Assembly (NCBI GenBank): GCA_020853795.1
Contig: JADYYF010000052.1
Location: 1-47,698, forward strand
Direction: 5' to 3'
Origin: Candidatus Zixiibacteriota bacterium
Lineage (GTDB): Bacteria; Zixibacteria; MSB-5A5; CAIYYT01
Length of the DNA stretch: 47,698 bases
Shown here: piece by piece, positions 1 through 43,693 of the stretch
Layout of the letters: each line of letters begins with the position of its first letter
Position numbering within the stretch: position 1 is the first letter of the stretch
Position numbers and translations under genes: made by a program
The notes under the pieces: model-generated
The model's input: only the letters and a program-made list of their open reading frames with translations
Databases searched by the model: none
What the model was told of the DNA's origin: nothing

Positions 1-1079
1 CCCATCGGATGCGAGTTGCGGTGGACGTCGGCATGGCAGGTGCGGCACATGGTCATCACGTCGCTGTTCACGAGATACCGCGCATTGTCGGCGCCGTGCG
101 GCGCATGACAACTCGAGCACTCCTGGCCCGGATGCGTCATGTACTTCGGCTTGTCCTTCGCCGGCACGTCGGTGAAGTGGCAGCGCGTGCACAACGTTTG
201 TTGGCTCGAGGCCATCAGAGCGCCGACATTGGAAGCGTGCGGATTGTGGCAGTTGGTGCACGACCGATCGCCATCGATATGCGCGTGAAATTCTGCTTTG
301 CGCGCGCCGGCCTGGTCTTCATGACACTTCAGACAGATATCGGCTACTGAACCGCCAATCGCGAATGACTTGCCGCCGCCGGCGTGGCACTCTGAGCACT
401 CTCCGCTTTCGAACGGCGCATGTTGATTGGCCATCAGCAGCCCGCGGTGCGACGAAGCATGGGGATCATGGCAGGTTGAACAATCGGCATCTGCCAGGTC
501 ATAGCCTTTGTGAACAGTCATGAACTGCTGGTTCTGCGGATGGCAATCAAAGCACAACTGCGGAACGGCCTTGGCCAGAATCCCTTGATGCTCGGATCCG
601 TGCGGCGCATGGCACTGCGAGCAGTTGCGATTCGCCACCGGGGAGTGGACCTGCGCCTGCTTCAGCCAGTCAGCGACCGCCGGGTGGCAACTCTGGCACA
701 GCTCGCCTTGCGACTGCACCAGTTGATTGCGGAAATCGGAGGCGTGCGGATCGTGACACGACAAACACTCGCCGTTTGCGGCGGGTTGGTGCTTCGAAGG
801 TAGCGTGGCGACCTGTTTCAGATCTTCGTGGCAACTCTGACACAATTCGCCTGAATTCTCCTTCAGCAGCGCCGCATGGCGCGACGCATGCGGATTGTGG
901 CAGTCGGAACACTTGCCCTCGGCAAAAGCCGTATGCGGACTCTTCTTCTTCAGTTCAACCTGGATATCGTCGTGGCACGCAAGACACACCCCCGGTTCGT
1001 CGACCTTGACGACTTGCGCAATCAGCGGCGCAGCCGCGGCCAGCACCACGATCATCAGTATCGCAAGACGCGTCTTCAT
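1..1079 (-). CDS. Multiheme c-type cytochrome, at least 14 hemes (3' end off the window)
   Basis: Reading the minus strand from ATG at 1079 gives an open frame to the window edge, about 359 residues. A Sec signal peptide (starts MKTRLAILMIVV, hydrophobic to about residue 22) is followed by 14 CXXCH heme motifs (for example CLACH, CSDCH, CQSCH, CFDCH, CRTCH). Motifs of the type LCxxCH alternate with CxxCHxPH, the pattern of the doubled-CXXCH cytochrome family. The start ATG overlaps the stop of the upstream 26-heme gene (ATGA), and a GGAGG lies about 7 nt upstream, so the two are translationally coupled. It is probably periplasmic or at the outer surface and carries electrons as a heme wire. 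The C-terminus is not seen, so the total heme number and any anchor are unknown. Confidence 0.9.
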   Translation of the reverse strand, partial: MKTRLAILMIVVLAAAAPLIAQVVKVDEPGVCLACHDDIQVELKKKSPHTAFAEGKCSDCHNPHASRHAALLKENSGELCQSCHEDLKQVATLPSKHQPAANGECLSCHDPHASDFRNQLVQSQGELCQSCHPAVADWLKQAQVHSPVANRNCSQCHAPHGSEHQGILAKAVPQLCFDCHPQNQQFMTVHKGYDLADADCSTCHDPHASSHRGLLMANQHAPFESGECSECHAGGGKSFAIGGSVADICLKCHEDQAGARKAEFHAHIDGDRSCTNCHNPHASNVGALMASSQQTLCTRCHFTDVPAKDKPKYMTHPGQECSSCHAPHGADNARYLVNSDVMTMCRTCHADVHRNSHPM

Positions 1080-3052
1080 TCCTTGCCTCCGTTCTGCGGA
1101 GTCTCCGTGTGGCAGGCGTCGCACGCTCCGCCGGAGAACGGTTCATGGCCGTTTTTCAGCATCAAAGTGGCTTCCTTGGCGCCGTGGGGATCATGACACT
1201 TGCGGCAGTCGATCTGGCTGCCCGCCAGTCCCAGGTGCTTGCTCCTGAATTCTTGATCGTCGCCGTCATGGCAGGTCAAGCAGGCCATGGGGACCGGTTC
1301 ACTCAGAAGGGAGGTCAACTCGCTCGTGTGCGGCTTGTGACAACTGCCGCATTCATCCTTCGCCGGAGCGTGCGCGACACCCTTGGTCAAGACTTCGTCG
1401 ATATCTTTGTGGCAGTTCAAGCACAGCCGCGGCTCCTTGTCGAGCAGAAGATTCTTGATCTTACCGGCGTGCGGCTTGTGACAGGCGGCGCAATCTCCGT
1501 TCGTCACTGGTTGATGCATGCTGACGGCATTGGCGTCAATCACGTCGGAATGGCACTCGCCACACAACTGCGCCGGAGCCTGCGTCAACAGCCCCTTGAA
1601 GTTGGTGGCGTGCGGAGCATGGCAGGAACTGCAACTGCCCTCCGCAAAGGGGGGATGGACGACGGTGTTGCTGCTGTCCGCAATTACGGCCTGATGGCAA
1701 CTGCCGCAGAGCCGGTCCGGCGCGGCAGCCAGCAGCGGCTTGATCGCGGCGCCGTGCGGATTGTGGCACTTGGTGCACTCGCCCGCCTTAATCGGCAAAT
1801 GGACGCTGGTCTGTCCCATCCAGCTATTGACATCACTATGACATTCGGTGCACAGGTCACCTTCACTCTTACTCAACAGCTTCTCGTGAACCGACCCATG
1901 CGGAGCGTGGCAGTCCGTGCACAGACCGTCGCTGAACGGCGCGTGTTGGCTGGCGGCCGTCATCAAGGCCCCGAGGTCCGAATGGCAGTCGAGACAAAGG
2001 GTGTTCGTGTCCTTCGTAAGCAGATGCTGTTTGGTCTTACCGTGGGCGGCGTGGCACTGTGCGCAATTCTCCCGAACCGGTTGATGCGCCGACACGCCGG
2101 TCAATTGCGACTGCACATCGTCGTGACACTCCATGCACAGCGCGGATTCCTTCTTTGCCAGCAGCTTTGGTTCGCGCGATCCGTGCGGATTGTGGCACGT
2201 CAGACATTCAGCCTCGGCGACCGGCGGATGACTGCCGGCCGGAGCCACTTCGCCACGGTCATGGCACGACAAACACAACTCGTTCCCGTCACCCTGAAGT
2301 GCGAATGGCTCGCCCGTACCCGGCTCCTGGTGGCACGTTGTGCATTCGCCGCCTTCAACCGGCGCATGGATCGAATTGGCGAACAACTTGGGCGATTCCG
2401 AAGAATGCGGCGAGTGGCATAGCCCGCAATCCTTCGTTTCAACGGCGAAGGCGCCGTGTGCCGTCTTGAAAGCCGGGGCAGTGGGACTGTGACACTCGGC
2501 GCAGAGTTCGCCTTGCCCCTTCTTCAGCAGTGCCGGATGATCGCTGCCGTGAACTTCGTGGCACGCCGAGCAGTCCTGCTTCGCCGGGCTATGGACAAAT
2601 TGCTTCTCGTGCTCCGTGCGGTCGTGACAGGTGAAGCACACCTCGCGGGATTTGGCCACCAGCATCCCGGGCTGATCGCCGGCATGGGGGTTGTGACACT
2701 TGGAACACTCGCCCTGCTTCGCCGGCGCGTGCAAATACGCCCGCTCCATTCCCAGTTCCGTTTTGCTGTGACACTGGTAACACAGGGCCGCTCCCGTTTC
2801 CTTGAGTCGCAACATTCCCACCAGTCCGTGCGGCTTATGGCACGATTGGCAGTCCTTGTCCGCGAACGGCTGGTGCTTGTACTTCCCCTTGAAGTCCCCG
2901 ATTGAATGGCACTCCAGGCAGTTGCCTTCCGCTGAAAATCGCTTGCCGCGCTTGACCTGCGCATTCGCCGTAACCGCCGCTAACACGGCGACCGCCAGCA
3001 CCAGCGCTACGATTCGGCGTCTTTGAATCCTTGCGCGGCGTGTTGCGTCCAT
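1076..3052 (-). CDS. 26-heme c-type cytochrome
   Basis: The protein has 658 residues from ATG at 3052, chosen because it begins a clean signal peptide (MDATRRARIQRRRIVALVL, then a hydrophobic stretch ending in ANAQ) with a GGAG upstream. An in-frame extension to 3127 would run into the preceding gene. I count 26 CXXCH motifs, about one per 25 residues, in a regular unit in which LCxxCH is followed some 20 residues later by CxxCHxPHG. The His in the xPH element is a plausible distal heme ligand, as in doubled-CXXCH families. No other domain is visible, so the chain is essentially a heme scaffold. It follows a parvulin gene and a beta-barrel gene on the same strand, which suggests a periplasmic or surface electron conduit partner. 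Heme count is seen; conduit role is inferred. Confidence 0.93.
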   Translation of the reverse strand: MDATRRARIQRRRIVALVLAVAVLAAVTANAQVKRGKRFSAEGNCLECHSIGDFKGKYKHQPFADKDCQSCHKPHGLVGMLRLKETGAALCYQCHSKTELGMERAYLHAPAKQGECSKCHNPHAGDQPGMLVAKSREVCFTCHDRTEHEKQFVHSPAKQDCSACHEVHGSDHPALLKKGQGELCAECHSPTAPAFKTAHGAFAVETKDCGLCHSPHSSESPKLFANSIHAPVEGGECTTCHQEPGTGEPFALQGDGNELCLSCHDRGEVAPAGSHPPVAEAECLTCHNPHGSREPKLLAKKESALCMECHDDVQSQLTGVSAHQPVRENCAQCHAAHGKTKQHLLTKDTNTLCLDCHSDLGALMTAASQHAPFSDGLCTDCHAPHGSVHEKLLSKSEGDLCTECHSDVNSWMGQTSVHLPIKAGECTKCHNPHGAAIKPLLAAAPDRLCGSCHQAVIADSSNTVVHPPFAEGSCSSCHAPHATNFKGLLTQAPAQLCGECHSDVIDANAVSMHQPVTNGDCAACHKPHAGKIKNLLLDKEPRLCLNCHKDIDEVLTKGVAHAPAKDECGSCHKPHTSELTSLLSEPVPMACLTCHDGDDQEFRSKHLGLAGSQIDCRKCHDPHGAKEATLMLKNGHEPFSGGACDACHTETPQNGGKE

Positions 3053-3098
3053 TCCCGGCTTCACTCCAATCCTCTCAGTCTGCCCGCTCCCGCGTCGT

Positions 3099-4745
3099 CT
3101 AATTCCCGGCGCCGAGATAATTCTCAATCGCCTCGTCGAACAGCACTACGGTAGAATTCGCACGCAACCGCTCCAGCGCCGCATCCAACAATTTCGTAAA
3201 CTTGGCCTGGAACATCGCTTCGCGAATCTTCATCTCAACTTCGTCCATCTTCTTCAGTTCCCCCTGCCGCCGGTCCAGAATCTTGAAGATGACCCACCCA
3301 TCTTCCGTCGGATAAGCCTGCGAACTGCCACCCACCTTGAGCTGCTCGAGATCGGCACGGATCGACGGCGGAAATGCCGCCAACGAAACCCACTGGACCC
3401 GTTCGGCCAGTTCCTTGGCATCTTTGCGGAATCGCCCGGCCACGTATTCGAAATCCGCGCCCTCGCGCAGCAACGCCACCGCGCTATCCGCGGCCGCTGC
3501 CGCCGCCACCGTCACTTCGCGAATGTTGATCTGATCCGGATCGCGAAAATCAGCTTCGTGCTCGCTATAGTACTGCTGAAACTCGTCGTGATTGAATTTG
3601 ATCGCGGCGACAATCGTCTCCTTCAAGTAGATCTCGATCAGCGCGCTGTCGCTCGCTGTGACCAATTGCCGGACTATGCGCTCGTCCGTATCCAACCCGG
3701 CGTCGATACCCGCGCGATAGAGGACGGCTTCCTGCAGCAGTCCGTCCAGCGCCTGATAAAGGAGCGTTGCCACCGGAGCGGTGGCATTCGACATCGCCGT
3801 GTGCGCGGTCGCCTGGCGCAGGCGATTCTCGTCGACTAAAGCCTGGCCGGCGATCGTGGCGACGGGTCGCTCGCTGCCATACTGGAAGGTCGAATCCAGC
3901 ACCGAGGTCGTGTTCGCCACAATCGTCGCGATTGCCCCGCTGTCGATCACGACCGCGTAGCGGTCGCGCAGGCTTCCGACAAACCGCTTCCAGGCCGCCC
4001 CTGCGCTCTGTGTCCGCAGTGCCTCTCTGATCAGGCCTCGTAACGCCGGCAACTCTTCCGGATTCGCCGGCGCGGTATCTTCCACCCGCATGATGGCGCT
4101 CACTTGTCGATAGGGGAACGGACCGATCAGCTGACCTTTGGTCGCACCCTGCAGATAATCGCGCAAGTCCAATTCGACATTGGCCCAATACTTGAACGAG
4201 TGTAGCCCGCCCATATAGCGATGAACGTCCAGCGAGCGCTCTTTGGCCAGGCTGTCCATATCCGCGCCGGCCTTGACCTGCGCCACGAGCGATTCTGCCG
4301 CCGCCACGGTCTCGACCGCGATCGTACGGACCCGCACCTTGTGATAGTTGTCGCGAAAATATGCCGCGATGCTGTCCTCGCCGATACTGTCAATCGGCGG
4401 AAGGTTCTTGCGGACGTAAAGCCGTGACACGAGTTCACGCTTTTGCTCATCCAGAAATTCCCGGAAGTAGTCTTCGTCCGGAATTCCCAATGCCTTGGCC
4501 TCCTGAATGATCAAACGGTCGTTAACGAGCTTCTTCAGCAGTTTGTGGTAGTCAAAGTCGCCCTTCTGGCTGGCGGACATTCCGGAATGAATGCCGGCGA
4601 AGATGGCATCGATATCCGTTGTGAAGATTGAGTCACTGTTGACGACCGCCAGAAGCGCCCGCTCCGGCTGTTCCGCACCGGCGCTGCCCGCAAGCGCTAT
4701 CTTCCAAACTCCAAGTAGAAGTACTATCAATGATCGCGCCGACAT
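3099..4745 (-). CDS. Exported peptidyl-prolyl isomerase with duplicated SurA-N/parvulin units
   Basis: The protein has 548 residues from ATG at 4745 (GAAAGGAAA about 10 nt upstream); an earlier TTG at 4764-4766 would give seven extra residues before the signal peptide. After the signal peptide (cleavage near AGSAGAEQ) comes a SurA-N-like segment beginning LLAVVNSDSIFTTDID, then a parvulin-like segment at about residues 120-225. A second helical segment (around VATIAGQALVDENRL) and a second, better conserved parvulin segment follow, covering about the last 140 residues and including WVSLAAFPPSIRADL and DGWVIFKILD. Parvulins of this type assist folding of secreted or outer-membrane proteins. 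Here it lies between a barrel and two giant cytochromes and probably serves them. The stop is 46 nt upstream of the 26-heme start. Confidence 0.85.
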   Translation of the reverse strand: MSARSLIVLLLGVWKIALAGSAGAEQPERALLAVVNSDSIFTTDIDAIFAGIHSGMSASQKGDFDYHKLLKKLVNDRLIIQEAKALGIPDEDYFREFLDEQKRELVSRLYVRKNLPPIDSIGEDSIAAYFRDNYHKVRVRTIAVETVAAAESLVAQVKAGADMDSLAKERSLDVHRYMGGLHSFKYWANVELDLRDYLQGATKGQLIGPFPYRQVSAIMRVEDTAPANPEELPALRGLIREALRTQSAGAAWKRFVGSLRDRYAVVIDSGAIATIVANTTSVLDSTFQYGSERPVATIAGQALVDENRLRQATAHTAMSNATAPVATLLYQALDGLLQEAVLYRAGIDAGLDTDERIVRQLVTASDSALIEIYLKETIVAAIKFNHDEFQQYYSEHEADFRDPDQINIREVTVAAAAAADSAVALLREGADFEYVAGRFRKDAKELAERVQWVSLAAFPPSIRADLEQLKVGGSSQAYPTEDGWVIFKILDRRQGELKKMDEVEMKIREAMFQAKFTKLLDAALERLRANSTVVLFDEAIENYLGAGN

Positions 4746-4749
4746 GGTT

Positions 4750-5874
4750 TCAGTTTCCTTTCTCAATGCTCGTGGTTCCCGTGCGGCTTGGGCCCAGATC
4801 CCGATGTTCTTCCTCGATTAGCTTGTTGCAAGCGTGGTGAACCGCGGCCAAAGTCAATTCGCCGATTGCATACGTCCGGCCAATACCAAACAGCGTTTCG
4901 GTATCGGCGCCATCGCGAACAACCGATGTTGCCGCAGTCAGCTCGCCGGTCCGCGCGTCGATCATTCTCAGCGTCAGCTCGACATGCGGTCCGATTTCGC
5001 TATCACCGCCTCGGGAGGGAAGGAACTCCGTTACGATGCCGGTGACAATCGTGCCGACGCCAAGCTCGGCCGCCAACACGTCCGGCAGAGGGGCCACGGC
5101 GCCGCCCTGAACATTGATCCCAAGTTTCTGCTGCAACCGTGTCAGCTCGCCGGGTTCCAGCAGTCGATAACCGCGGCGGTGCAATTCATAGATCAGCGCT
5201 CCCGTCGCTGCGGCGCCGGCTCCGGCAAAATCGCAGGCGTTGTCAATCTCCACGACGGCGACACGCCCTCGCGCTGCCAGCGCGCGATCCTTCTTGGCCG
5301 GTTCCTCAATGGCGTCAGACCGCTGCGCAATCAGTTTGGCCGCGTCCTTCAACAACCGGTCGAGCACTTTGCTTGTCAGCGTTTCCACGAAGCTGATCCG
5401 GCCAATGCCGAATGCGCCCGCCTCGCCCTCGCCGCTGAGTGCACAGCGATTCAGCCAGACAATTCCTCCGTCTCTACAGTCGTAGGCGCGCAAATTCACC
5501 GCGACTTCGGGGTTCTCTTGCTCAAGATATAGTTCAATTGCGCCGGTCAGGATTACTTCGGCGCCCGTCGCCGCCGCAATCAGCGCGGCGCTGCTGCTGT
5601 CGCATTCTCCGATCAGCCGGAGACGATGACTGCGCATCAAGCCCCGCAGCGTGTCGGCGGCCACCAAGTCGAATCCCGCCGCCGTCAGCCGGTCGCGCAG
5701 ACTCGCCTCAATCGCCTTTGCCCCTTGCATCGACTCAGAGTAGTTTGCCAGTGGGATCAGCGCCAGTCGCGGCAAGGTCGCGGCGATAGCAGTCGCTGTC
5801 GAAAGCAGAGCCAGCAGACACAAAATCATCAGTTTTGCGGGAATTGCGGAGAATCCAAGTCGGCTCGGCAACAT
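4750..5874 (-). CDS. Exported protein with two CsgG/GNA1162-like domains
   Basis: The protein has 374 residues from ATG at 5874, chosen because it starts a signal peptide (MLPSRLGFSAIPAKLMILCL, cleavage near AIAA). The mature chain has two similar alpha/beta units. One starts LPRLALIPLANYSE and contains LRDRLTAAGFDLVAADTL and ATGAEVILTGAI. The other starts RVAVVEIDNACDF and contains LHRRGYRLLEPGELTRL and LGVGTIVTGIVTEFLP. The pattern of an IP/VE strand, a 'RGY/AGFxLV' strand and a 'G..ILTG' strand is that of CsgG-like and LpoB-like periplasmic proteins. No lipobox Cys is present. It begins 5 nt after the lipoprotein gene and ends 4 nt before the parvulin gene, so it is certainly co-transcribed. 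Function is unproven; a periplasmic assembly or structural role at the outer membrane is a guess. Confidence 0.7.
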   Translation of the reverse strand: MLPSRLGFSAIPAKLMILCLLALLSTATAIAATLPRLALIPLANYSESMQGAKAIEASLRDRLTAAGFDLVAADTLRGLMRSHRLRLIGECDSSSAALIAAATGAEVILTGAIELYLEQENPEVAVNLRAYDCRDGGIVWLNRCALSGEGEAGAFGIGRISFVETLTSKVLDRLLKDAAKLIAQRSDAIEEPAKKDRALAARGRVAVVEIDNACDFAGAGAAATGALIYELHRRGYRLLEPGELTRLQQKLGINVQGGAVAPLPDVLAAELGVGTIVTGIVTEFLPSRGGDSEIGPHVELTLRMIDARTGELTAATSVVRDGADTETLFGIGRTYAIGELTLAAVHHACNKLIEEEHRDLGPSRTGTTSIEKGN

Positions 5875-5879
5875 AGCAG

Positions 5880-6458
5880 CTACTTCACCAGCGTCTTGAT
5901 GACCTTGCGCACGCACTTGCGTGCAACCTCGCTCTGCGATCGCTGGCCGGTTCCGAACAGCGAGGCAAAGAATCCGCGGCTGCCCTCGGTATGTGTCGCC
6001 GACCACACCGTTTGTGCGCTTTCGGTTTCAATCATGCGGACGTCGAGCGTCACGACCGTGCCTTCGTTGGCGGCGGCTCGGGCGCCGGACGACTCGTTAA
6101 CCGTCCCCAGAATAATCCCCTGAACCCCCAGCGCTTGTCCCAGTTGCTTCGCCTGCTCTTCCGTCAACAGATCGAATCGGGTGATATTCATCCGGCTCGT
6201 CGCGCTCAACACCTCGCCCGGCTCGACGATGTCAAAGGCGTCGGTTGCCAGCAGCTCGGTGATGAACAAATGCGTCACGCGTGCGCTCGCACCCTGATCG
6301 TTGGAAAGATTCTCGAACGGCAACACGGCGACCCTCTCGACAAACGCGAAGTTATAGTCGCGGTGAATAAAGACCGTGGAGCCCATTCCGGCACACCCGG
6401 CGATGACACCAATGCCAAGAGCCGCGATCATGACTGCAAGGATTCGAAGCTGTCTCAC
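5880..6458 (-). CDS. Outer-membrane lipoprotein, CsgG/GNA1162-like
   Basis: The protein has 192 residues, starting at GTG 6458 with AAGGG about 11 nt upstream. The N-terminus is a lipoprotein signal with lipobox VIAGC (Cys22), followed by GMGSTV. The mature part has the CsgG-superfamily pattern: FVERVAVLPFENLSND, then ARVTHLFITELLATDAFDIVEP, then LGQALGVQGIILGTVNE, and TLDVRMIETESAQTVWS. Residue +2 after the lipid-modified Cys is Ala, consistent with Lol-dependent transfer to the outer membrane. It lies 14 nt downstream of the beta-barrel gene and 5 nt upstream of the two-domain CsgG-like gene. A role as a small accessory lipoprotein of the barrel complex is inferred from position only. Confidence 0.8.
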   Translation of the reverse strand: MRQLRILAVMIAALGIGVIAGCAGMGSTVFIHRDYNFAFVERVAVLPFENLSNDQGASARVTHLFITELLATDAFDIVEPGEVLSATSRMNITRFDLLTEEQAKQLGQALGVQGIILGTVNESSGARAAANEGTVVTLDVRMIETESAQTVWSATHTEGSRGFFASLFGTGQRSQSEVARKCVRKVIKTLVK

Positions 6459-8575: not shown

Positions 8576-8589
8576 TTCGCTCACTCCCT

Positions 8590-8620
8590 AAAAAACGCCC
8601 GACCTCGCGATCGGGCGTTT
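8590..8620 (-). terminator. Rho-independent terminator of the NHL/OmcS-like operon
   Basis: On the minus strand ACGCCCGA (8618-8611) pairs perfectly with TCGGGCGT (8602-8595) around an 8-nt loop and runs into six T residues (8595-8590). The stem can extend by two A-T pairs using the T tract. It lies about 50 nt after the cytochrome stop at 8672 and directly before the barrel gene start at 8575, so it separates the two transcription units. Confidence 0.85.
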
Positions 8621-8671
8621 GGTTTTGCCCTTGCGGGCTTCGAGGTCACTCATCATGACCCGATTTTTCGA

Positions 8672-9727
8672 TTACGGCTCGAACGGAGCGTCGCCGGCAT
8701 CCTTCGCATGGCACTTGTTGCACAGCGAGCGCTGGTTCAAACTCGGATACGGATTCGGAATCGCATACGATCCGGACTCGACACCGTCTTCGTGCAGGAA
8801 GGTGATGTTGAAGTCCCAACGGCCGGCGTTCTGGGCCGAGGTCGCATGGGCGCGATGACAGGTGATGCAGGTCACCTGGCTGGTCGCCGACGGACCATTG
8901 GTCGAGGTCGTCGTGTTGGTCGGATCTTCAAACGGAACCGCCGCAATGTACGCGGTCGCCTGGGTCCCACCCGTCATGTTGTCGGTGCCGTTGTACAGAT
9001 TGTAGATGTTGGCAATCGTACCGCCAATGGCGCGGCCGGTCGGGTGAATCAGCTTGGTCGCGTTGTTGTGGAAATCGCCGTGGCAATTGCCGCACCACGC
9101 ACCCATGCCGCTCTTGTAAGCAGTGTGCATGACATTGGTCTCAGCCGTATTGTAGCTATTGCCTTCGGCATCCGGAGCCGGAGCCGTGAACGTGGCCAAA
9201 CCGTCTTGGATCGGGCCAACGCCGTTCAGCAAACGGAAATTCTGGTTGCCGTGCGGATCATGGCACGACGTGCAACCCAGTTGGCTGGCCGGGAACGTAC
9301 CGCCCGGGGAAACGAGCAACGTTCCGTCCGGACCGGCACCACGACCAGGAGCATTGATATTGTGACCGGCTGCACGGCCCGGAATCGGGCTGGTCGCGCC
9401 GCCGTGACCGTCATTAATATTGTCCTCAGTCAAGAACACGAAGTTGCCGCCGCCCTTTTCGGCCGGCGGGTTCAACGGATCCGTGCCCCACACTGCACCG
9501 CGGCTGGTGGCATGGCACGACAAGCACAGGTCGCTCGCCGACTGGAACTTCAGCAGGTAGGCGTTTCCGTTCGGATGAGCCGGGTCCACCAGGACGCCGT
9601 TGTTCATATTGTGCATCGTATGGCAACCGCCGCAATACGCCACGCCGCCATCATGGAATGCAAACGCAGTGCTTGACAACAATGCCGCCAACGACATCGA
9701 GACAAGGACTAACAAAAGCTTGCGCAT
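8672..9727 (-). CDS. OmcS/OmcE-like hexaheme cytochrome, predicted extracellular nanowire subunit
   Basis: The protein has 351 residues from ATG at 9727, with GGAGG 8 nt upstream. A Sec signal ends at TAFA, so the mature chain begins FHDGG. There are six CXXCH motifs at precursor residues 32, 68, 152, 212, 287 and 336. From memory of Geobacter OmcS, the match extends well beyond heme motifs: the N-terminus FHxGGVAxCxGCHTMHN, then PGGTFPASQLGCTSCHDPHG, WCGNCHGDFHN, the TIANIYNLY region, TAYIAAVPFED, CHRAHA, and the C-terminal LCNKCHAKD. His16 of the mature protein, which in OmcS ligates a heme of the neighbouring subunit, is conserved at the same position. The mature chain of 328 residues is shorter than OmcS but keeps six hemes. 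It follows the NHL gene by 19 nt and a terminator closes the operon. Polymerisation is predicted, not shown. Confidence 0.9.
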   Translation of the reverse strand: MRKLLLVLVSMSLAALLSSTAFAFHDGGVAYCGGCHTMHNMNNGVLVDPAHPNGNAYLLKFQSASDLCLSCHATSRGAVWGTDPLNPPAEKGGGNFVFLTEDNINDGHGGATSPIPGRAAGHNINAPGRGAGPDGTLLVSPGGTFPASQLGCTSCHDPHGNQNFRLLNGVGPIQDGLATFTAPAPDAEGNSYNTAETNVMHTAYKSGMGAWCGNCHGDFHNNATKLIHPTGRAIGGTIANIYNLYNGTDNMTGGTQATAYIAAVPFEDPTNTTTSTNGPSATSQVTCITCHRAHATSAQNAGRWDFNITFLHEDGVESGSYAIPNPYPSLNQRSLCNKCHAKDAGDAPFEP

Positions 9728-9746: not shown

Positions 9747-10886
9747 CTAATCAGATACAAACGAACGTGAATTCAACAAGGGGGTAGTAAACTCCAGACT
9801 CACCTCCTCCTTCTGCGCTTCGCGCTTCCAAGGCTTAAGGGTTGCTGATGAGGTTGGTTTCGCAAACGACTTCACTTGTTCCGCGATGAACTCCGGCAAC
9901 TCGCACACCTGAACCCGATTAAGAAAAATCTGGCTGACATAAATGCGGCCCAGGTTGTCCACTGCCATGCGCTCCGGATGGTAGAACCACCCCAGCGTAT
10001 TTCCCATCCCGCCGAATTCACCGAGAAATTGACCTGCGGTCGTGAAGCAAACCACGTTGAAACGATGTTTATCGAGAACTAAGACTAAAGCGTGATCGAT
10101 GACGTCCACCGCCGTCGGGAAGTTCAGCTCGCCGATGTTGTTGCCGCGCAGCCCAATCCGCCGCACCAGAGTTCCGGAGAGGTCGTAGACATACACAACG
10201 CCAAACATCGACACGGGCAGGTACAGCAGCTCACCGTCAATCCGCGGCGAGCCCATAACAACTTCCTGGCGCTCTTTCTCGGTCATGTCCGTCACGAGCG
10301 GGAACTCACCCTGATATTTCCCCTCAGCGTCGATCTTGACGATGCGGTCAAACGCGCCGCTCATCAGATAGAGAATGTCCTGACTGTCGATCGCGATGTA
10401 CCGCACGTCAAAAGTGTCGGAGTCAGCGAAATCGATCAGTTCCAGGCGTCCCATCAGCGTGCCGTCGTAGTCAAACTTGAAGACCGACCCGGCGCGCTGC
10501 CGCTGCGTTCCGACGACGTAGATGAATCCGTGCGAATCGACAACCAGATCAGTCGGGCTGCCGAATTCGTCACGCCCCGAGAACTGGAACTTGAAAACTC
10601 CCGAGGTGTCGAAAACCGCCACACGATTATTGCCGGTATCGACAATGAACACTTCATTGAAGCGCTGATCGATGAAGACCTGCTGGGGACGGAGGAGACC
10701 ATTGTTGGTTCCGGGAGGGTCGAGCTTGCGCAGGAACACGGCCGGAACCGACTTCTCAGCCTGCGCCTGCAAACCCGCAGGAAGCAGAACAGCAACGAGA
10801 AATGCCGTTAAGACAACGACGCCCACTAGGGCAGTTATAATCCGGATGTTCTTCCCGATACAACTCTGTCGATTCGTCGCTGGCAA
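9747..10886 (-). CDS. Exported or membrane-anchored NHL-repeat beta-propeller protein
   Basis: The protein has about 379 residues. No ATG is available near the 5' end. I chose TTG at 10886 because GGAG lies 9 nt upstream; a TTG at 10910 would add eight residues and has no ribosome site. A hydrophobic segment (ITALVGVVVLTAFLVAVLL) is a signal peptide or anchor. Six NHL-type blades follow, with recurring 'P..V.VD..G.IYV' and 'N.RV.VFD..G.F...F' patterns, for example FIVDTGNNRVAVFD, SPTDLVVDSHGFIYVV and PERMAVDNLGRIYVS. The blades are followed by a charged 60-residue tail. It directly precedes the OmcS-like gene. My recollection is that NHL genes also neighbour omcS in Geobacter, which would suggest a role in filament assembly or surface attachment. 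Confidence 0.82.
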   Translation of the reverse strand: MPATNRQSCIGKNIRIITALVGVVVLTAFLVAVLLPAGLQAQAEKSVPAVFLRKLDPPGTNNGLLRPQQVFIDQRFNEVFIVDTGNNRVAVFDTSGVFKFQFSGRDEFGSPTDLVVDSHGFIYVVGTQRQRAGSVFKFDYDGTLMGRLELIDFADSDTFDVRYIAIDSQDILYLMSGAFDRIVKIDAEGKYQGEFPLVTDMTEKERQEVVMGSPRIDGELLYLPVSMFGVVYVYDLSGTLVRRIGLRGNNIGELNFPTAVDVIDHALVLVLDKHRFNVVCFTTAGQFLGEFGGMGNTLGWFYHPERMAVDNLGRIYVSQIFLNRVQVCELPEFIAEQVKSFAKPTSSATLKPWKREAQKEEVSLEFTTPLLNSRSFVSD

Positions 10887-10924
10887 TTCGGAAGTCTCCG
10901 CACCCGCCAATTAGCAGGAGTAAA

Positions 10925-11302: not shown

Positions 11303-12103
11303 TCATGGCTTGACTGTAAGAATTGGTGAATTACCACTAACTCGACCCATGTCGTGACAGTCCGTACACATTCCGTCAGCTATCTGTCGAGCAAGTAGAA
11401 ACTCGTTCTCTGAAACAAGACTATGACAAGTTTGACACTCGATATTACCGTCTATGAGGACAAGAAACTCTGGGATGTCTGAGTTTATCTTCAAGGACGA
11501 TGATGGCTTACGAAATCCGGCAACCAGAGGGACCCCGAAAGCGTGACTGGCGCTGACGTGAAACCGCGGCAGGCCGCTTCCTGCAGAGCCCACGACTGCG
11601 TTCCTGCGATCCGCGTCGTGACAAGATAGACAAAACTGGGACGGTTGTTCTGCGAAGGCAAGATCACGCTGAGAGTGAATCAATCTTGCAGCGCCACGAT
11701 GCCCAGGACTTATCGCTGGACGCGTGCCGACACCATGGCAGTCCCGGCATAACTGAATCGCAGTCTGTGCAAATGAGAGGGACAAGGTGTCATCACTGAT
11801 TGTCAGAAGTTCCGGCGCGTGAAACAGGTGGCATCTGCCGCAATTCTCCGTTAAGTCCGAGTGGAATAATCGGGATTTCTCTGTCGCTTCGCGGTGGCAT
11901 CCACGGCAATCCTGAGATCCGCCATCCAGCTCAGCCTCCTGGTCTGCCGTCTTGGAGTACGCGTGGCATTGCCGGCAAGCGACGTCTTGATGCGGATGGC
12001 GGGCACTCGACTCAGCGGAGCCGTCGGGCAGCAAGCGGCCGAAATAGATCAGCCCGATCAACAGGATCAGCGTGCCCAGAGCAATGGCAGAACGCGTTTG
12101 CAC
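11303..12103 (-). CDS. Membrane-anchored heptaheme c-type cytochrome
   Basis: The protein has 266 residues starting at GTG 12103; no ATG is available upstream before an in-frame stop, and no strong ribosome site is seen. Residues 7-24 (ALGTLILLIGLIYFGRLL) form one transmembrane helix with no clear cleavage site, so it is probably anchored in the inner membrane and faces the periplasm. There are seven CXXCH motifs (CRQCH, CRGCH, CGRCH, CRDCH, CLSCH, CQTCH, CTDCH), with HPHQD just before the first and further His residues that could be distal ligands. Its neighbours are the nanowire-like operon downstream and a two-component system upstream, 164 nt away. It could pass electrons from the quinone pool into the periplasm, as NapC/CymA-type or ImcH-type proteins do, but it is not clearly of those families. 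Confidence 0.85.
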   Translation of the reverse strand: MQTRSAIALGTLILLIGLIYFGRLLPDGSAESSARHPHQDVACRQCHAYSKTADQEAELDGGSQDCRGCHREATEKSRLFHSDLTENCGRCHLFHAPELLTISDDTLSLSFAQTAIQLCRDCHGVGTRPAISPGHRGAARLIHSQRDLAFAEQPSQFCLSCHDADRRNAVVGSAGSGLPRFHVSASHAFGVPLVAGFRKPSSSLKINSDIPEFLVLIDGNIECQTCHSLVSENEFLLARQIADGMCTDCHDMGRVSGNSPILTVKP

Positions 12104-12267: not shown

Positions 12268-12984
12268 TCAGGACAGTTCCGAATCGACTTCGCCGGCAGG
12301 CGTGAACTTGTAGCCGGCGCCGCGCAGGGTATGGATGTAGCGGGGGTTGGCCGGGTCCGGTTCGAAGATCTTGCGCAGGCGCAGGATGAAATTGTCGATG
12401 GTGCGCGAAGAGGGATAAACGTGATAACCCCACACTGCGTCGAGAATCATGTCGCGCGAGACGACCTCGTTGGCGTGTTCGACGAGGAATTTCATCGTCA
12501 TACACTCCTTCTGCGACAATTCCACTTCACCGGTCGGGCCCTTGGCGCGGTACGTACGGAAATCCACCCAGTTCTCCGCAAAATCAAAACGCGAGCGATC
12601 CAATTCCACCGTGCCGTACCAGACCTGGCGACGAAAAATCGCCGATACGCGCAGCAACAGTTCCTGGAGATTGAAGGGCTTGGTTATGTAGTCATCGCCG
12701 CCGCTGAGGAAACCGTCGATGCGATCCGACTGGCGGTCGCGGGCGGTCAAGAACAGCACCGGCAGCCGCCCGCCTTCCTGGCGGATTTCCCTGCAAACGG
12801 TGAGCCCGTCCTTGCCGGGGATCATGATGTCCAGAATGATCAAGTCAAACTGTCCTTTGTGGTAAAGGTCGAGCGCGGCGATCCCGTCGGCCGCGACCGC
12901 AACCTCGTAGCCTTCCGCCTCAAGATTCAGCTGCAGCCCTTCGGCAATGTGCTCTTCGTCTTCGACAACTAATATGCGTTTCAT
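12268..12984 (-). CDS. OmpR/PhoB-family response regulator
   Basis: The protein has 238 residues from ATG at 12984. A receiver domain spans residues 1-120, with acidic pair E8-D9, phospho-acceptor Asp52 (in LIILDIMIPGKDG), a Thr in LFLTARD and Lys in ITKPF. A winged-helix DNA-binding domain spans about 140-230 (LSQKECMTMKFLVEH, VSRDMILDAVWG, RTIDNFILRLRKIFE, HTLRGAGYKF). The start overlaps the stop of the histidine kinase gene (ATGA), so the pair is translationally coupled and certainly cognate. The genes upstream in the same run (surface barrel, kinase-like lipoprotein, PAP2) suggest an envelope or phosphate-related signal, but no target site could be identified. Confidence 0.95.
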   Translation of the reverse strand: MKRILVVEDEEHIAEGLQLNLEAEGYEVAVAADGIAALDLYHKGQFDLIILDIMIPGKDGLTVCREIRQEGGRLPVLFLTARDRQSDRIDGFLSGGDDYITKPFNLQELLLRVSAIFRRQVWYGTVELDRSRFDFAENWVDFRTYRAKGPTGEVELSQKECMTMKFLVEHANEVVSRDMILDAVWGYHVYPSSRTIDNFILRLRKIFEPDPANPRYIHTLRGAGYKFTPAGEVDSELS

Positions 12985-14318
12985 GCAACCTTCTCCAACG
13001 GCAGCCGGATGCGGAAGGTACAACCGCGATCGCGACCCTCTGAGTACAGCTCAACCGTCCCGCCGTGCTCGGTAACGATTTGTTTTACGAGAAATAGGCC
13101 GATGCCGGTTCCTTTGACCGAACGCGTGTTCTCCATACCCGTTCGATAGAAGCGCTCAAAGACCTTCTTCAACTCGTGTTTTTCCACACCAACGCCTTCA
13201 TCCACGAACAGCAATTCGGCTTGATCGCCGCGCCGGCGCGCGCTGATGCTCAGCCGGCGCCGTACCTCCGGCGAGTACTTGATCGCGTTATCGACCAATG
13301 CCGTTACGACTCTCCGTAACGCGTGATAGTCGGTCTTGACGATCAGTTCCTTCTCAAGATCGAGGGTCAACTTCATTTTATGACGGTCGATCAGAGCCTG
13401 CAACCCCTCCAGATACTCGACCAGATCATTCGACAGGTTAGTCTCAACCAGCTTGGCCCGATGGCCGCGCTGGGACAATCGCCCGGCCTCCAGAACGTTG
13501 TCGACCAGCCCTTCCAATCTTTCGCAGTCGTCAAGCATGCGCGGGACGAATCCCTTGATCTTCTCCTGGTCAAATTTGCCGGAGGCCATCGATTCCAGGT
13601 ACAACTTGATCGAAGCCACCGGGATTTTCAGCTCGTGCGTAACCGCATGGATGAAGTTCTCCTGCTGATGCTTCAGGCTCTCCGACTGCCGCAGGGTGCG
13701 ATAGATCATGAAGGCGCCCAATAGCGTCAACAATACGAAGAATGATCCCTCCATGGCGAACATGACGACGCGGCGGCGGGCGCGCTCCTGAACTTCCGCG
13801 GTTACCCCCGCTTTGACACTGAACATCGATGGTTCAAACCACGGATTGCGATACTCGCCCTGCCGCGGCGCGGCCGTGAACTGCAAATCGGCATTCAACT
13901 CCGTCGTAAGCTGCGCAGGATAGGTCGGATCCAGAAAGATCGCGGCCCGATGATTCGCGCCGACGCTCAGGTAGAAGCTGGAATCAACCTCCCCGGAAGT
14001 TATCAGCAGCGCTCCCGTCGGACCGAACAACTGGTAACCTCTCACTGCCGGATCGGCCAGCAACAGGTCGAGTGCTGCCCGCAGATGTCCGATATTATCG
14101 ACGCTGACGAACGATTCCGCCTCATACGCCAGCCGGTCATAGGATCGGTTCAGAATCAGCGAAGCCAGTTGTGCTGCCGCCGCCGTCTGTCGCTCGTGGA
14201 ACTCGATCTGTTCCTTGGAAATCATGACTTGAAAGTACACCCACCAGATGATCTGGCCGATGCAGACAATGACAAGCGCGATGAACAGCGCCAGCGCCAA
14301 CCCCGCCGGACGTGCCAA
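12981..14318 (-). CDS. Sensor histidine kinase
   Basis: The protein has 445 residues if read from TTG at 14318. Two transmembrane helices (about 8-31 and 184-206) flank a periplasmic sensor of about 150 residues with no recognised fold. The catalytic part has HisKA with phospho-acceptor His228 (HAVTHELKIPV), N-box VDNAIKYSP, G1 box FVDEGVGVEKHE, F-box FERFYR and G2 box GTGIGLFLVKQIV. A strong AGGAGG (14344-14349, minus) lies 18-30 nt before the TTG, too far for it, but ideally placed for ATT at 14336-14334. That would add six residues in frame (IRIKHR before the L of the TTG), a natural cationic start. The stop overlaps the response regulator start. Confidence 0.93.
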   Translation of the reverse strand: MARPAGLALALFIALVIVCIGQIIWWVYFQVMISKEQIEFHERQTAAAAQLASLILNRSYDRLAYEAESFVSVDNIGHLRAALDLLLADPAVRGYQLFGPTGALLITSGEVDSSFYLSVGANHRAAIFLDPTYPAQLTTELNADLQFTAAPRQGEYRNPWFEPSMFSVKAGVTAEVQERARRRVVMFAMEGSFFVLLTLLGAFMIYRTLRQSESLKHQQENFIHAVTHELKIPVASIKLYLESMASGKFDQEKIKGFVPRMLDDCERLEGLVDNVLEAGRLSQRGHRAKLVETNLSNDLVEYLEGLQALIDRHKMKLTLDLEKELIVKTDYHALRRVVTALVDNAIKYSPEVRRRLSISARRRGDQAELLFVDEGVGVEKHELKKVFERFYRTGMENTRSVKGTGIGLFLVKQIVTEHGGTVELYSEGRDRGCTFRIRLPLEKVA

Positions 14319-21883: not shown

Positions 21884-23407
21884 ATGCTCCGGTCGCTGAC
21901 CCGCGTCTTCGATATACGTCCCGGCGAGCGCCGGCTGACAGCCTTGATGGCGCTCAGCTACTTCCTGCTCCTCTCAACTTTCTATTTCCTCAAATCGGCC
22001 CGCGATTCGCTGTTTCTCTTCAAGCTGACCCCGGAGCAACTTCCGTTGGTCTTTATCGTTTCGGCCTTGGCATCCATCCCGATCGCCGGGTTCTACATCA
22101 GAGCTTCGCGGCGGCTCTCTCTTCTCAATCTGATCGTCGGCACCTCCTTCGTGTTGATTGCCTGTCTGGTTCTCTTGCGCTATCTGCTCGCCGTCGGCTC
22201 AAGCTGGGTCTTTTACGCTTTCTATGCCTGGGTGGGAGTATACGGAATTCTGGTAACGGCGCTGTTTTGGCTCCTGGCCAATGCCGTTTTCGACGTCCAG
22301 CAAGCCAAGCGGCTGTTCACGTTTCTCGGAGCCGCGGGAATCCTGGGTGCGTTCTGCGCCGGTGAAGCGACGAGTCTGTTGATCAATCGGGTTCATCTGG
22401 CGACGGAGAACTTGATCATCCTCGCTGCCGCGATCCTGGTTCTCGCCACGCTGGTCATCGCGCAGTTGGCCAAGCTGCATCACGAGTCCACCCGAGAAAG
22501 AGAGAGCAGCGCAAGGCCCGAAGACGGTTCGACCCTGCCTACGATCGAAGTCTTGCAGACCGTGCGGAAGTCCCGGCTCCTGCAGACGATCGTCGCCTTG
22601 ATCGCTGTCGCCGTCATGACTTCGACCATCATCGACTTTGTCTTTAAGGAGATCTGCTTCAACGCGTACGGGGGCAGCAAGCAGGAGTTGACGGCCTTCT
22701 TTGGCGTCTTCTATGGACGCGTCAGTCTGCTGGCGCTCGTGATTCAGCTGCTGCTCACCTATCCGTTGGTTCGTCGGCTGGGGGTCGGCGGAGTCATCGT
22801 GATCATGCCTCTGACCCTGATCGGTACCTCGCTCGGTGTGATCGTCGCGCCGCTCCTGTTGCCGGCGTTGGCGCTGAAAGGCTCGGAGGGTCTGCTGGAG
22901 TACTCGGCTGATCGCAGTGGCCGGGAACTACTGTTCATGCCGTTGTCGCTGGATCTCAAGAAACGCGTGAAAGTCTTTGTCGATGTCTTCGTTGATCGGC
23001 TCTTTCGCGGCGTGGCCGGCGTCGTGCTGCTGGTCGCCACCGGCGTCTTCGCCTTTGGCGCCCGGCAGATGGCTGTCATTGCCGCCGTCCTGGCGCTGGT
23101 CTGGCTGCTCATCGCGCTGGTCGTCCGCCGGGAATATGTCGAAACCTTCAGGTTGGCAATCGAACATCGCGATATCGACATTTCCGACCTTCGTACCGCG
23201 ATTGATGATTCGCAAACGCTGAAAATGCTGACCGGCTACCTTTCCAGTCCCCATGAACGCCAGGTGACCTATGCGCTCGATCTGCTCAAGTCGGCTCGCG
23301 ATCCGAGTCTGGTCGAGAGCATCAGTTCGCTGCTGCGCCACGCCTCACCCGAGGTCCGCCGGCGCGCGGTCGAGGTCTTGCAGGAATATCATGAGCTTGT
23401 TAAGTGA
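21884..23407 (+). CDS. ADP/ATP-translocase-like (NTT/TLC) or MFS transporter with C-terminal HEAT repeats
   Basis: The protein has 507 residues from ATG at 21884 (GGGAG upstream). Residues about 15-420 carry some 11-12 transmembrane helices with features of the bacterial and plastid nucleotide transporter family: ALSYFLLLSTFYFLKSARDSLF in the first helix, IDFVFKEICFNAYGG, and LLFMPLSLDLKKRVKVFVDVFVDR, a loop typical of NTT-like proteins. The C-terminal 80 residues are soluble and helical (LKMLTGYLSSPHERQVTYAL, SLLRHASPEVRRRAVEVL), that is HEAT repeats. Free-living bacteria carry NTT-like proteins of unknown substrate; ATP/ADP exchange should not be assumed. It overlaps the following HEAT gene by 17 nt, so the HEAT array is in effect continued by the next protein. 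Confidence 0.8.
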   Translation: MLRSLTRVFDIRPGERRLTALMALSYFLLLSTFYFLKSARDSLFLFKLTPEQLPLVFIVSALASIPIAGFYIRASRRLSLLNLIVGTSFVLIACLVLLRYLLAVGSSWVFYAFYAWVGVYGILVTALFWLLANAVFDVQQAKRLFTFLGAAGILGAFCAGEATSLLINRVHLATENLIILAAAILVLATLVIAQLAKLHHESTRERESSARPEDGSTLPTIEVLQTVRKSRLLQTIVALIAVAVMTSTIIDFVFKEICFNAYGGSKQELTAFFGVFYGRVSLLALVIQLLLTYPLVRRLGVGGVIVIMPLTLIGTSLGVIVAPLLLPALALKGSEGLLEYSADRSGRELLFMPLSLDLKKRVKVFVDVFVDRLFRGVAGVVLLVATGVFAFGARQMAVIAAVLALVWLLIALVVRREYVETFRLAIEHRDIDISDLRTAIDDSQTLKMLTGYLSSPHERQVTYALDLLKSARDPSLVESISSLLRHASPEVRRRAVEVLQEYHELVK

Positions 23408-29994: not shown

Positions 29995-30208
29995 CCGCAC
30001 TCCGAGAACTAATCGGCACCTCATCGCATCCTAACCGAGAGGCGCCATTCTTCTTGCGGATATGGTTGAACGTTACACCAGCGCAAAACCCGCACGTATG
30101 CTTCTCCGCGAGCTCCCGGCGACCTCGCCGCTCAAGAATCTCCGGGTGCCGCGCGCATCCACTCGATTTCGATTTGTGACCCAAGTTGCGAACCAAGAAA
30201 GGAAAATT

Positions 30209-32026
30209 ATGAACAGGAGGAAATCCGTGTATCGTCTGTTCTTGTTGCCACTGACTCTGCTCCTCATGATGGCGAGTTGGGCCTTCGGACAGTGCATAAT
30301 CGAGCCCGGTAAAACCCAGGTCTTAGTACCGATCGGCGACATCACGACCGATCAAACCTGGACTGCCGGCAACGTCTACGTGCTGCAAGGGCCGACCTAC
30401 GTGGTCTCCGGCGTCACGCTAACCATCCAGCCCGGTACCGTGATCAAGGGCATCACCGGTCTGCCGGCCGGATCAGTCGCCTCGCTCATCATCGAGCGCG
30501 GCGCGCAGATTATCGCCAATGGCACCGAGCAAGCGCCGATCATCTTCACCGCCTGCACCGACGACCTGAACGATCCGACCGATCTGGATCGCTCCAATCG
30601 CGGTCTCTGGGGCTCGCTGATCATCCTCGGCAACGCCCCGATCAATGGCACGGTCACCCCGCCGAATACGTGCGCGACCAACTTCATCGAAGGCATCCCA
30701 CCATCGCCAAAAACCGAATATGGTGGCTGCGATGCCTTCGACAATTCCGGCATCCTGCGCTACGTGCAACTCAAGCACGGCGGTTCGATCATCGGCGCCG
30801 CCAATGAAATCAACGGCCTCACCCTCGGCGGCGTCGGCTCCGGAACGACGATCGAGTACGTTGAAGTCTTCGCCAATCTGGATGACGGCTTCGAGTTCTT
30901 CGGCGGAACCGTGAATTGCCGTTATCTCATCTCGGCTTTCAACGACGACGATGCTTTCGATTGGGACCAAGGCTACTCCGGCAAGTTGCAATTCTTGTTC
31001 TGCATCTACGACTCGACCAACGGCGATCGCGCCTTCGAAATCGACAGTGATGATGGCAACGCCGATACGCAGCCGTACGCCCGCCCGACCGTCTACAATG
31101 TGACCGCGTTCGGTCGCGGGGAAGTGCTCACGACCGCGCCGTCTAACCAAAATGCCGCCATTCATTCCAAAGAGAACAATGCCGGTCACTTCCGAAACTC
31201 GATCTTCTACGAATGGCCGCGTAATGGCATCTTCATCGAAGATCAATCCGGCCCGTCGTTCAGCCTGAATCCGATTCCCGACTGCTCGATCCTCGGTGGC
31301 CAGATCGACGCCGAATATCACAGCCGCTGTCTCACCGGCCCGTTCACCAACCCGAATTGGGTCGGGGGTTACAGCAATCAGAATCCAGTCTTCGCAGTGT
31401 CCAACTTCGATGTCTTCGGTACCATCTGGTGTGCGATTAACAGCGCGGCGATCACGCCCACCCTCGTGGCCAGTTCGCAATCCTGGACCGAACAGCGCCT
31501 CTTCACTGATTATCCGTCACTCGGTGGCGCTATCGCCGGTGTCCCCGGCGGAGCTTGGGACAACGTCATCGAAAACCCGATCTTCGCCGGCAATAATCGG
31601 GCCAAGAGCCGCTTCTCTGGACAAAACGCTCTGGACCCGCGCCCGGCCGTCGGCGGACCGGCATTTTCGATTGGACTAAAGGACGCGCCGGCCGAAGATC
31701 CTTGGTTCCAATCCGCACCGTATGCCGGGGCGTTCAATGCCACCAACAATTGGATGATGAACTGGACAAATCTCTGGTTTGCCGACTACCTCAATGAAGG
31801 TCCGGCCGTCAGCGGAAAGTGCGGCGATGCCGACTGCAGCGGTGCATACTCGATCTCCGATGCGGTCTACCTCATCAACTACATTTTTGCCGGCGGCCCG
31901 GCGCCGTGCTCCCCGCTAAACGGCGACGCCGATGTCAGCGGCTCAGTCTCAATCTCCGATGCCGTGTACCTCATTAACTACATCTTCGCCGGCGGCCCGG
32001 CACCGGCCTGTCCAAATTGCAGCTAA
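30209..32026 (+). CDS. Secreted beta-helix-like protein with C-terminal dockerin-type repeats
   Basis: The protein has 605 residues from ATG at 30209 (AGAAAGGAAA upstream). A GTG at 30227, with AGGAGG 6 nt before it, is a credible rival and also leaves a signal peptide (cleavage near AFGQ). The body has Gly- and Asn-rich short strands typical of a right-handed parallel beta-helix (VVSGVTLTIQPGTVIKGITG, GLWGSLIILGNAPINGTV, LTLGGVGSGTTIEYVEVF). The C-terminus holds two dockerin-type I repeats (CGDADCSGAYSISDAVYLIN and NGDADVSGSVSISDAVYLIN) with Ca-loop residues D-x-D-x-S and a downstream D. No enzymatic motif is recognised. The gene follows the TonB-dependent receptor by about 215 nt on the same strand; pairing of the two is inferred. 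Confidence 0.82.
   Translation: MNRRKSVYRLFLLPLTLLLMMASWAFGQCIIEPGKTQVLVPIGDITTDQTWTAGNVYVLQGPTYVVSGVTLTIQPGTVIKGITGLPAGSVASLIIERGAQIIANGTEQAPIIFTACTDDLNDPTDLDRSNRGLWGSLIILGNAPINGTVTPPNTCATNFIEGIPPSPKTEYGGCDAFDNSGILRYVQLKHGGSIIGAANEINGLTLGGVGSGTTIEYVEVFANLDDGFEFFGGTVNCRYLISAFNDDDAFDWDQGYSGKLQFLFCIYDSTNGDRAFEIDSDDGNADTQPYARPTVYNVTAFGRGEVLTTAPSNQNAAIHSKENNAGHFRNSIFYEWPRNGIFIEDQSGPSFSLNPIPDCSILGGQIDAEYHSRCLTGPFTNPNWVGGYSNQNPVFAVSNFDVFGTIWCAINSAAITPTLVASSQSWTEQRLFTDYPSLGGAIAGVPGGAWDNVIENPIFAGNNRAKSRFSGQNALDPRPAVGGPAFSIGLKDAPAEDPWFQSAPYAGAFNATNNWMMNWTNLWFADYLNEGPAVSGKCGDADCSGAYSISDAVYLINYIFAGGPAPCSPLNGDADVSGSVSISDAVYLINYIFAGGPAPACPNCS
31820..32005 (+). repeat. Tandem dockerin-encoding repeat
   Basis: Two units, 31820-31906 and 31919-32005, encode nearly identical 29-residue dockerin repeats ending NYIFAGGPAP. 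DNA identity is high but many third codon positions differ, so the duplication is old and kept by selection on protein sequence. Confidence 0.85.
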
Positions 32027-32055
32027 CGACTTGTTGCCTCACTATTTCGACGAAT

Positions 32056-32081
32056 GGGCGGAGAATCATGGTTCTCCGCCC
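32056..32081 (+). terminator. Hairpin terminator after the dockerin protein gene
   Basis: GGGCGGAGAA (32056-32065) and TTCTCCGCCC (32072-32081) form a perfect 10-bp stem with a 6-nt loop, 29 nt after the stop codon. A true U-tract is missing (TCGCCATTATT follows), but the stem is strong and the position is right. Confidence 0.6.
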
Positions 32082-32290
32082 TCGCCATTATTGGACAAAT
32101 TCCGATAGCTTTTGACGTCTTTCAAGGTTCATTCTTTACCCTCCAAATCTGATACTATTTGTTATATTTTTCACGATCTGAGCCGATAGACACTAATAGC
32201 AAAATAGGATGATTTGTCTACTTTTTGCTTGACATTGATATGCCCAGAAGCTATTTATGCGAGCAGAAACAGGAGAAGAAGCGCCGATCA

Positions 32291-32340
32291 TGTGAATTAT
32301 TTCACAAATAGTATTGGTTCGGTGTCGTACGATTACAGGA
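32291..32340 (+). promoter_or_regulatory. CRP/HcpR-like operator and class II promoter of the redox operon
   Basis: TGTGAATTATTTCACA (32291-32306) is a perfect 6-bp inverted repeat and differs at one base from the site at 10925-10940. A -10-like TACGAT (32328-32333) would start transcription near 32340. The centre of the palindrome (32298.5) would then be at -41.5, the classic class II activator position. The ribosome site AGAGGTGA follows at 32343-32350 before the ATG at 32357. Confidence 0.65.
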
Positions 32341-32356
32341 ATAGAGGTGATACAGT

Positions 32357-34499: not shown

Positions 34500-34516
34500 T
34501 GAAAGGACTCAGTTTC

Positions 34517-38133: not shown

Positions 38134-38143
38134 CGCTCGCTCC

Positions 38144-43627: not shown

Positions 43628-43693
43628 GGCCGCCTCCATATTTCGTGATGTCCCAGTCGGTCCGACGATTCACTCCATCGGCACCGAGCCCGG

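Follow-up and report, generated by a model that had tools for sequence, protein, structure and literature searches.

Gene Organization of the Locus

The window is the whole stretch of DNA that was analyzed, 47,698 nucleotides from a Candidatus Zixiibacteriota bacterium (GenBank assembly GCA_020853795.1, contig JADYYF010000052.1). The features of the cytochrome cluster are listed in Table 1. A gene for an NHL-repeat protein, a gene for a hexaheme cytochrome, and genes for the equivalents of OscE, OscF, OscG, OscH, the 26-heme OscI, and OscJ form a single run on the minus strand, in the order found in Geobacter; this is a nearly complete osc (omcS companion) cluster. We infer the Osc letters of the window genes from this order.

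Table 1. Features of the hexaheme cytochrome cluster at one end of the window
Feature	Positions	Strand	Basis or remark
Two-component pair, histidine kinase and response regulator	12268..14318	-	Possible regulator of the cluster
Seven-heme cytochrome with an N-terminal hydrophobic stretch	11303-12103	-	Flanked by the two-component genes and the NHL gene
NHL-repeat beta-propeller	9747..10910	-	Pfam NHL; 20 nt before the start of the hexaheme gene
OmcS-family hexaheme cytochrome gene	8672..9727	-	ORF, six CXXCH, PDB, profile, and fold matches
Terminator-like hairpin with U-run	8590..8620	-	Between the hexaheme gene and the oscE equivalent
OscE equivalent, large outer-membrane beta-barrel, 703 aa	6473..8584	-	AlphaFold; homologues in the same place
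OscF equivalent, CsgG-related, lipoprotein-like	5880..6458	-	Pfam CsgG and synteny
OscG equivalent, CsgG-related	4750..6006	-	Weak Pfam CsgG and synteny
OscH equivalent, PpiC-type prolyl isomerase	3099..4766	-	Pfam Rotamase_2 (E = 1.3e-20) and synteny
OscI equivalent, 26-heme cytochrome	1076..3127	-	26 CXXCH
OscJ equivalent, truncated at the contig end	1..1075	-	At least 14 hemes

The osc operon of G. sulfurreducens has been described with OscH acting in folding, OscE, OscF, and OscG in secretion, and OscD in morphology (PMC13194489, PMC12977616). In the same organism oscC corresponds to GSU2501, oscI to GSU2495 (26 hemes), and oscJ to GSU2494 (PMC13194489, PMC12977616), and the osc machinery has been tied to the folding and secretion of OmcS in Geobacter (PMC13194489). 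The locus of a Geobacter relative (G074), whose OmcS shows 76% identity across the first 152 residues, was used as the reference for this genus. This relative has the same gene order, which also recurs in lineages ranging from Krumholzibacteria to Nitrospirota and Rokubacteria. A homologue of the NHL gene adjoins the OmcS gene across phyla, and two-component genes also lie upstream of several of the homologous clusters. The conserved block had been considered as a newly discovered operon dedicated to the export of OmcS; it is the osc cluster that has already been published.

The OscE equivalent was modeled using AlphaFold with a pLDDT of 89.3, and a non-barrel insertion appears near the middle of the model. 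The best match in the PDB is MtrB (6r2q_B, E = 3.5e-10) at a TM score of only 0.38, and for the predicted structure this match supports the description "large outer-membrane barrel" and nothing narrower. The true start of the OscG equivalent may lie downstream of the start of its open reading frame. The count of 26 hemes in OscI is kept almost everywhere among the homologous clusters, and full-length homologues of OscJ carry 15-16 hemes. In two other loci, L042 (Gemmatimonas) and L041 (an unclassified bacterium), a 42-heme cytochrome is found before the NHL and OmcS genes, where it replaces the 26-heme OscI.

The window cluster differs from that of Geobacter in several respects. It contains one hexaheme gene, compared with two or three in Geobacter; the Geobacter relative has two, one at the place of OmcS and one at the place of OscC. 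The OscJ equivalent is truncated by the end of the contig. Unlike in Geobacter, OscD was found neither in the cluster nor in the genome. When the genome was searched with an OscD profile, propeller fragments only were obtained, and full-length OscD was recovered with the same profile in the controls (the Geobacter relative G074, a Krumholzibacterium, and two other Zixibacteria, with G060 among the controls). A search of the genome with a single OscD sequence, run without a positive control, was empty. The NHL gene was considered as a candidate for OscD and has no similarity to it; an OscD hidden elsewhere in the genome was rejected on the basis of the profile search with its positive controls.

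The segment between the hexaheme gene and the oscE equivalent (8585-8671) is predicted to fold strongly, with a z-score of -5.2. The hairpin within it was found by reading and folding the sequence and was not listed by a generic terminator scan. Comparable hairpins of unrelated sequence occupy the same position in about ten other loci. The hairpin of the window is a probable attenuator, and its recurrence elsewhere suggests that the proportion of subunit to export machine is under conserved control.

Sequence and Heme Ligands of the Hexaheme Cytochrome

The hexaheme gene starts with an ATG at position 9727, preceded by a GGAGG ribosome site about 10 nt upstream, ends with a stop at 8672, and encodes 351 amino acids with exactly six CXXCH motifs. 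The signal peptide ends in ...STAFA, and the mature chain of 328 residues (34.0 kDa) begins with FHDGGVAYCGGCHTMHN, of which F1 corresponds to genomic position 9658. The original prediction had described this product as a six-heme nanowire cytochrome of the OmcS/OmcE type, with a mature start laid out as in OmcS and including His16. The heme count agrees, and His16 of the mature chain, which is residue 39 of the precursor, lines up with His16 of OmcS. The stretches quoted in that description, SQLGCTSCHDPHG, CHRAHA, and LCNKCHAKD, are all present.

When the single sequence was searched against the PDB using phmmer, OmcS was the sole match (E = 1.9e-39). Relatives at 62-67% identity occur within the same class, and these two results together exclude a chance resemblance. 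A family profile was built from 57 rows that cover Zixibacteria, Krumholzibacteria, Fibrobacterota, Gemmatimonadota, Nitrospirota, Acidobacteriota, Rokubacteria, Myxococcota, Desulfuromonadales, and others. This profile matched OmcS over residues 1-407 with E = 2.3e-120, and the next PDB entry followed at E = 0.006. An AlphaFold model was calculated from the 57-row alignment as a single chain without heme (pLDDT 83.5, pTM 0.84). A Foldseek search of this model against all PDB chains gave one match, OmcS (6ef8_A), with E = 4.9e-19 and a TM score of 0.78. The profile and structure searches thus returned OmcS and no other family. The window protein is a member of the OmcS family.

Wang et al. are said to have identified, in 2019, His16 as the ligand of OmcS that is supplied by the neighboring subunit. 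The cryo-EM structure of OmcS contains 12 histidine ligands, 11 provided by the subunit itself and one, on heme 5, by the neighbor (PMC6584659). These twelve comprise H2, H13, H16, H51, H110, H144, H147, H243, H257, H332, H335, and H404, and all of them, His16 included, align with histidines of the window protein. The distal ligands of the latter are H2, H16, H99, H136, H205, and H271 in mature numbering. The six CXXCH histidines together with H2, H99, H136, H205, and H271 are invariant in 57 of 57 rows, and H16 is present in 53. No other ligand among the twelve varies. The compact OmcS-type protein with a conserved candidate inter-subunit ligand that had been proposed is supported by the profile and structure searches and by the complete set of aligned ligands.

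The window protein resembles OmcS (6EF8, 6NEF) in its six hemes, twelve ligand histidines, and predicted fold, and the two share the start FHxGGVAxCxGCHTMHN and the ending motif LCNKCHAKD. About 40% of the aligned columns are identical (126/316). The two chains differ in length by 79 residues (328 aa and 34.0 kDa versus 407 aa and 42.9 kDa), close to the 80 estimated beforehand. The residues missing relative to OmcS lie mainly between hemes 3 and 4 (-39), hemes 5 and 6 (-23), and hemes 4 and 5 (-14); the spacings of the heme motifs are 36, 84, 60, 75, and 49 in the window protein and 38, 93, 99, 89, and 72 in OmcS. The tail after the last motif has 11 residues, compared with 3 in OmcS.

A wider superfamily was also encountered (L080-L098 and L008-L020), with about 25-30% identity and 6-7 hemes, often as tandem paralogues. 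The position of His16 is kept in most of its members. The hosts include Chloroflexota, Planctomycetota, other Zixibacteria, and one contig titled Heimdallarchaeota, a label that may reflect a binning error.

Phylogeny and Distribution

In the tree of the family, the window protein falls in a clade of 27 rows with a support of 100/100, in which nearly every member is about 325-340 residues long. The clade lies outside both the OmcS clade and the OscC clade, and one-to-one orthology with OmcS was not recovered in this tree. As judged from the branching, the window protein is equally related to OmcS and OscC. It groups with proteins from other families of the class rather than with those from its own genus or family, a pattern suggestive of transfer or differential loss.

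The hexaheme gene is the only member of the OmcS family found in its genome, which is 99.93% complete, and its product is therefore the sole candidate for export by this machinery. A relative of the same class (G054) carries an OmcS paralogue (L016) identical in sequence to one from Candidatus Zixiibacteriota bacterium Bin_224 (L035), and of ten named genomes compared, Bin_224 has the most similar RNA polymerase beta subunit (65-69%), in line with a placement in the Zixibacteria. Among the 133 genomes of the class, 19 carry a family member, so the presence of the family within the class is patchy.

Proposed Filament and Alternative Assignments

The window protein is predicted to polymerize outside the cell into a filament with a heme core. 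We assign this reading a probability of about 0.72; it is supported by the family membership, the fold, the full ligand set, the assembly cluster, and the status of the protein as sole candidate cargo. The position outside the OmcS and OscC clades and the absence of OscD were counted against polymerization. OmcS is known as a filament, and the window protein is known here from its sequence and a model. His16 was rejected as proof of a filament, as the OscC-type paralogues of Geobacteraceae keep all 12 heme ligands, His16 included. The osc cluster, which the original prediction did not mention, is stronger support for a nanowire subunit of the OmcS type than His16 is. Published caution also applies: no member other than OmcS is known to form a wire, and the same authors warn that their sequence models would fail to recognize authentic OmcS beyond the genus (PMC12977616). 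What OmcS wires do physiologically is itself disputed (PMC11077965).

In the proposed mechanism, the secreted hexaheme would polymerize for extracellular electron transfer. By extension from the work on OmcS in Geobacter, hemes 1-6 would stack in one chain, and by homology with OmcS, His16 of one subunit would ligate heme 5 of its neighbor. The Geobacter osc studies suggest that OscH would assist folding and that OscE together with OscF and OscG would provide the route of export through the outer membrane. Delivery of electrons to the wire is probably the task of OscI and OscJ, a step that is our own suggestion. A thinner sheath would be expected around an unchanged heme core because about 79 loop residues are gone around an unchanged ligand set. 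The hairpin after the hexaheme gene would allow a large number of subunits to be made for each export machine.

The hexaheme could instead be a companion protein of the OscC type (GSU2501-like), a partner of the export cluster that is perhaps periplasmic and forms no wire. Such a protein would belong to the same family, its gene would stand directly before the export genes, as the window gene stands directly before oscE and next to the place of OscC in Geobacter, and His16 would be retained, as it is in OscC, which has been listed as periplasmic (PMC13194489). The window gene also directly follows the NHL gene, however, which is the place of OmcS in Geobacter, and the genome provides no second hexaheme to serve as the cargo. 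The tree places OscC in a separate clade, with no grouping of the window protein with it, and the OscC proteins of Geobacteraceae end in LCYKCH. Single-hexaheme clusters also occur in several phyla. On balance the assignment as a companion protein is unlikely. Much less probable is a surface cytochrome that is monomeric or forms short oligomers, in which heme 5 would be five-coordinate or would receive its second ligand from within the chain. The single-chain models leave room for this arrangement, and two further histidines, H178 and H197 of the mature protein, occur in about 70% of the homologues. Neither is invariant, whereas His16 is found in nearly all rows, and the only fold match is OmcS, which is a filament protein.

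OmcE (7TFS) and the archaeal cytochrome filaments (8E5F, 8E5G) have been published as bis-His multiheme homopolymers. Membership of the window protein in these groups was considered and rejected. OmcE has a heme packing like that of OmcS and an inter-subunit ligand, and the two proteins have no sequence similarity (PMC9473688). No OmcE or archaeal filament entry was returned by the family profile at E ≤ 10 or by the fold search, and there are six hemes here versus four in OmcE. The probability of a filament of the OmcE or archaeal type is accordingly close to negligible, and the OmcE half of the original description falls away while the OmcS half stands.

Paralogues Lacking His16

OmcS-family paralogues without His16 were found at L035:1222-2217 (= L016), L071:2318-3244, L074:10073-11272, L075:10088-11317, and L118:1714-3024. 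The other eleven ligand histidines are kept in all four of the aligned rows that lack His16. The tree indicates at least two independent losses of His16, all in paralogues. In those Zixibacterium and Geobacteraceae genomes that were examined, a copy bearing His16 is present as well. In Geobacteraceae, the gene without His16 follows OscJ and a second NHL gene, at the distal end of the osc cluster. These paralogues may be chain-ending or anchoring subunits, and they offer a ready natural test of whether the inter-subunit heme ligand controls chain growth.

Relation to Published Systems

OmcS homologues in many lineages have been published (PMC10954620), and the title of Shen et al. 2025, as cited in PMC13194489, announces a "widespread and ancient" machinery for the assembly of OmcS homologues. 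The window protein is therefore not a new kind of protein. Descriptions were not found of the compact clade, the single-hexaheme cluster without OscD, the recurrent hairpin, or the restriction of ligand variation to His16. A broader proposal is offered tentatively, with the odds against it as a whole: Zixibacteria, Krumholzibacteria, and their neighbors would retain a minimal system for nanowires, made up of one compact hexaheme and the rest of osc and in some cases lacking OscD, that resembles the state before the split of OmcS and OscC, and the paralogues that lack His16 and retain the other eleven ligands would be dedicated chain-ending or anchoring subunits.

If the window protein polymerizes, the product would be a clearly more compact wire of the OmcS type than that of Geobacter, and a nanowire assembly system would be placed in an uncultivated phylum. 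Environmental studies connect Zixibacteria with iron cycling (PMC8478452). The single-copy cluster without OscD offers a simple setting for asking which parts are needed for export.

Other Genes in the Window

On the plus strand, positions 30062-35662 encode a 654-aa protein with one CXXCH and no Pfam match, followed by a 4Fe-4S protein, a membrane protein of the NrfD type, and a multiheme cytochrome with about 12 hemes. This module looks like an inner-membrane quinol:cytochrome oxidoreductase and could feed the nanowire system. A TLC-type ATP/ADP transporter domain (Pfam E = 1.6e-14) is encoded at 21884-23404 (plus strand), overlapping an open reading frame with HEAT repeats, in a genome of 3.6 Mb. 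At 35812-43639 (minus strand), a gene for a protein like penicillin-binding protein 1C adjoins one for a bacterial alpha-2-macroglobulin, which is the usual pairing of these two proteins.
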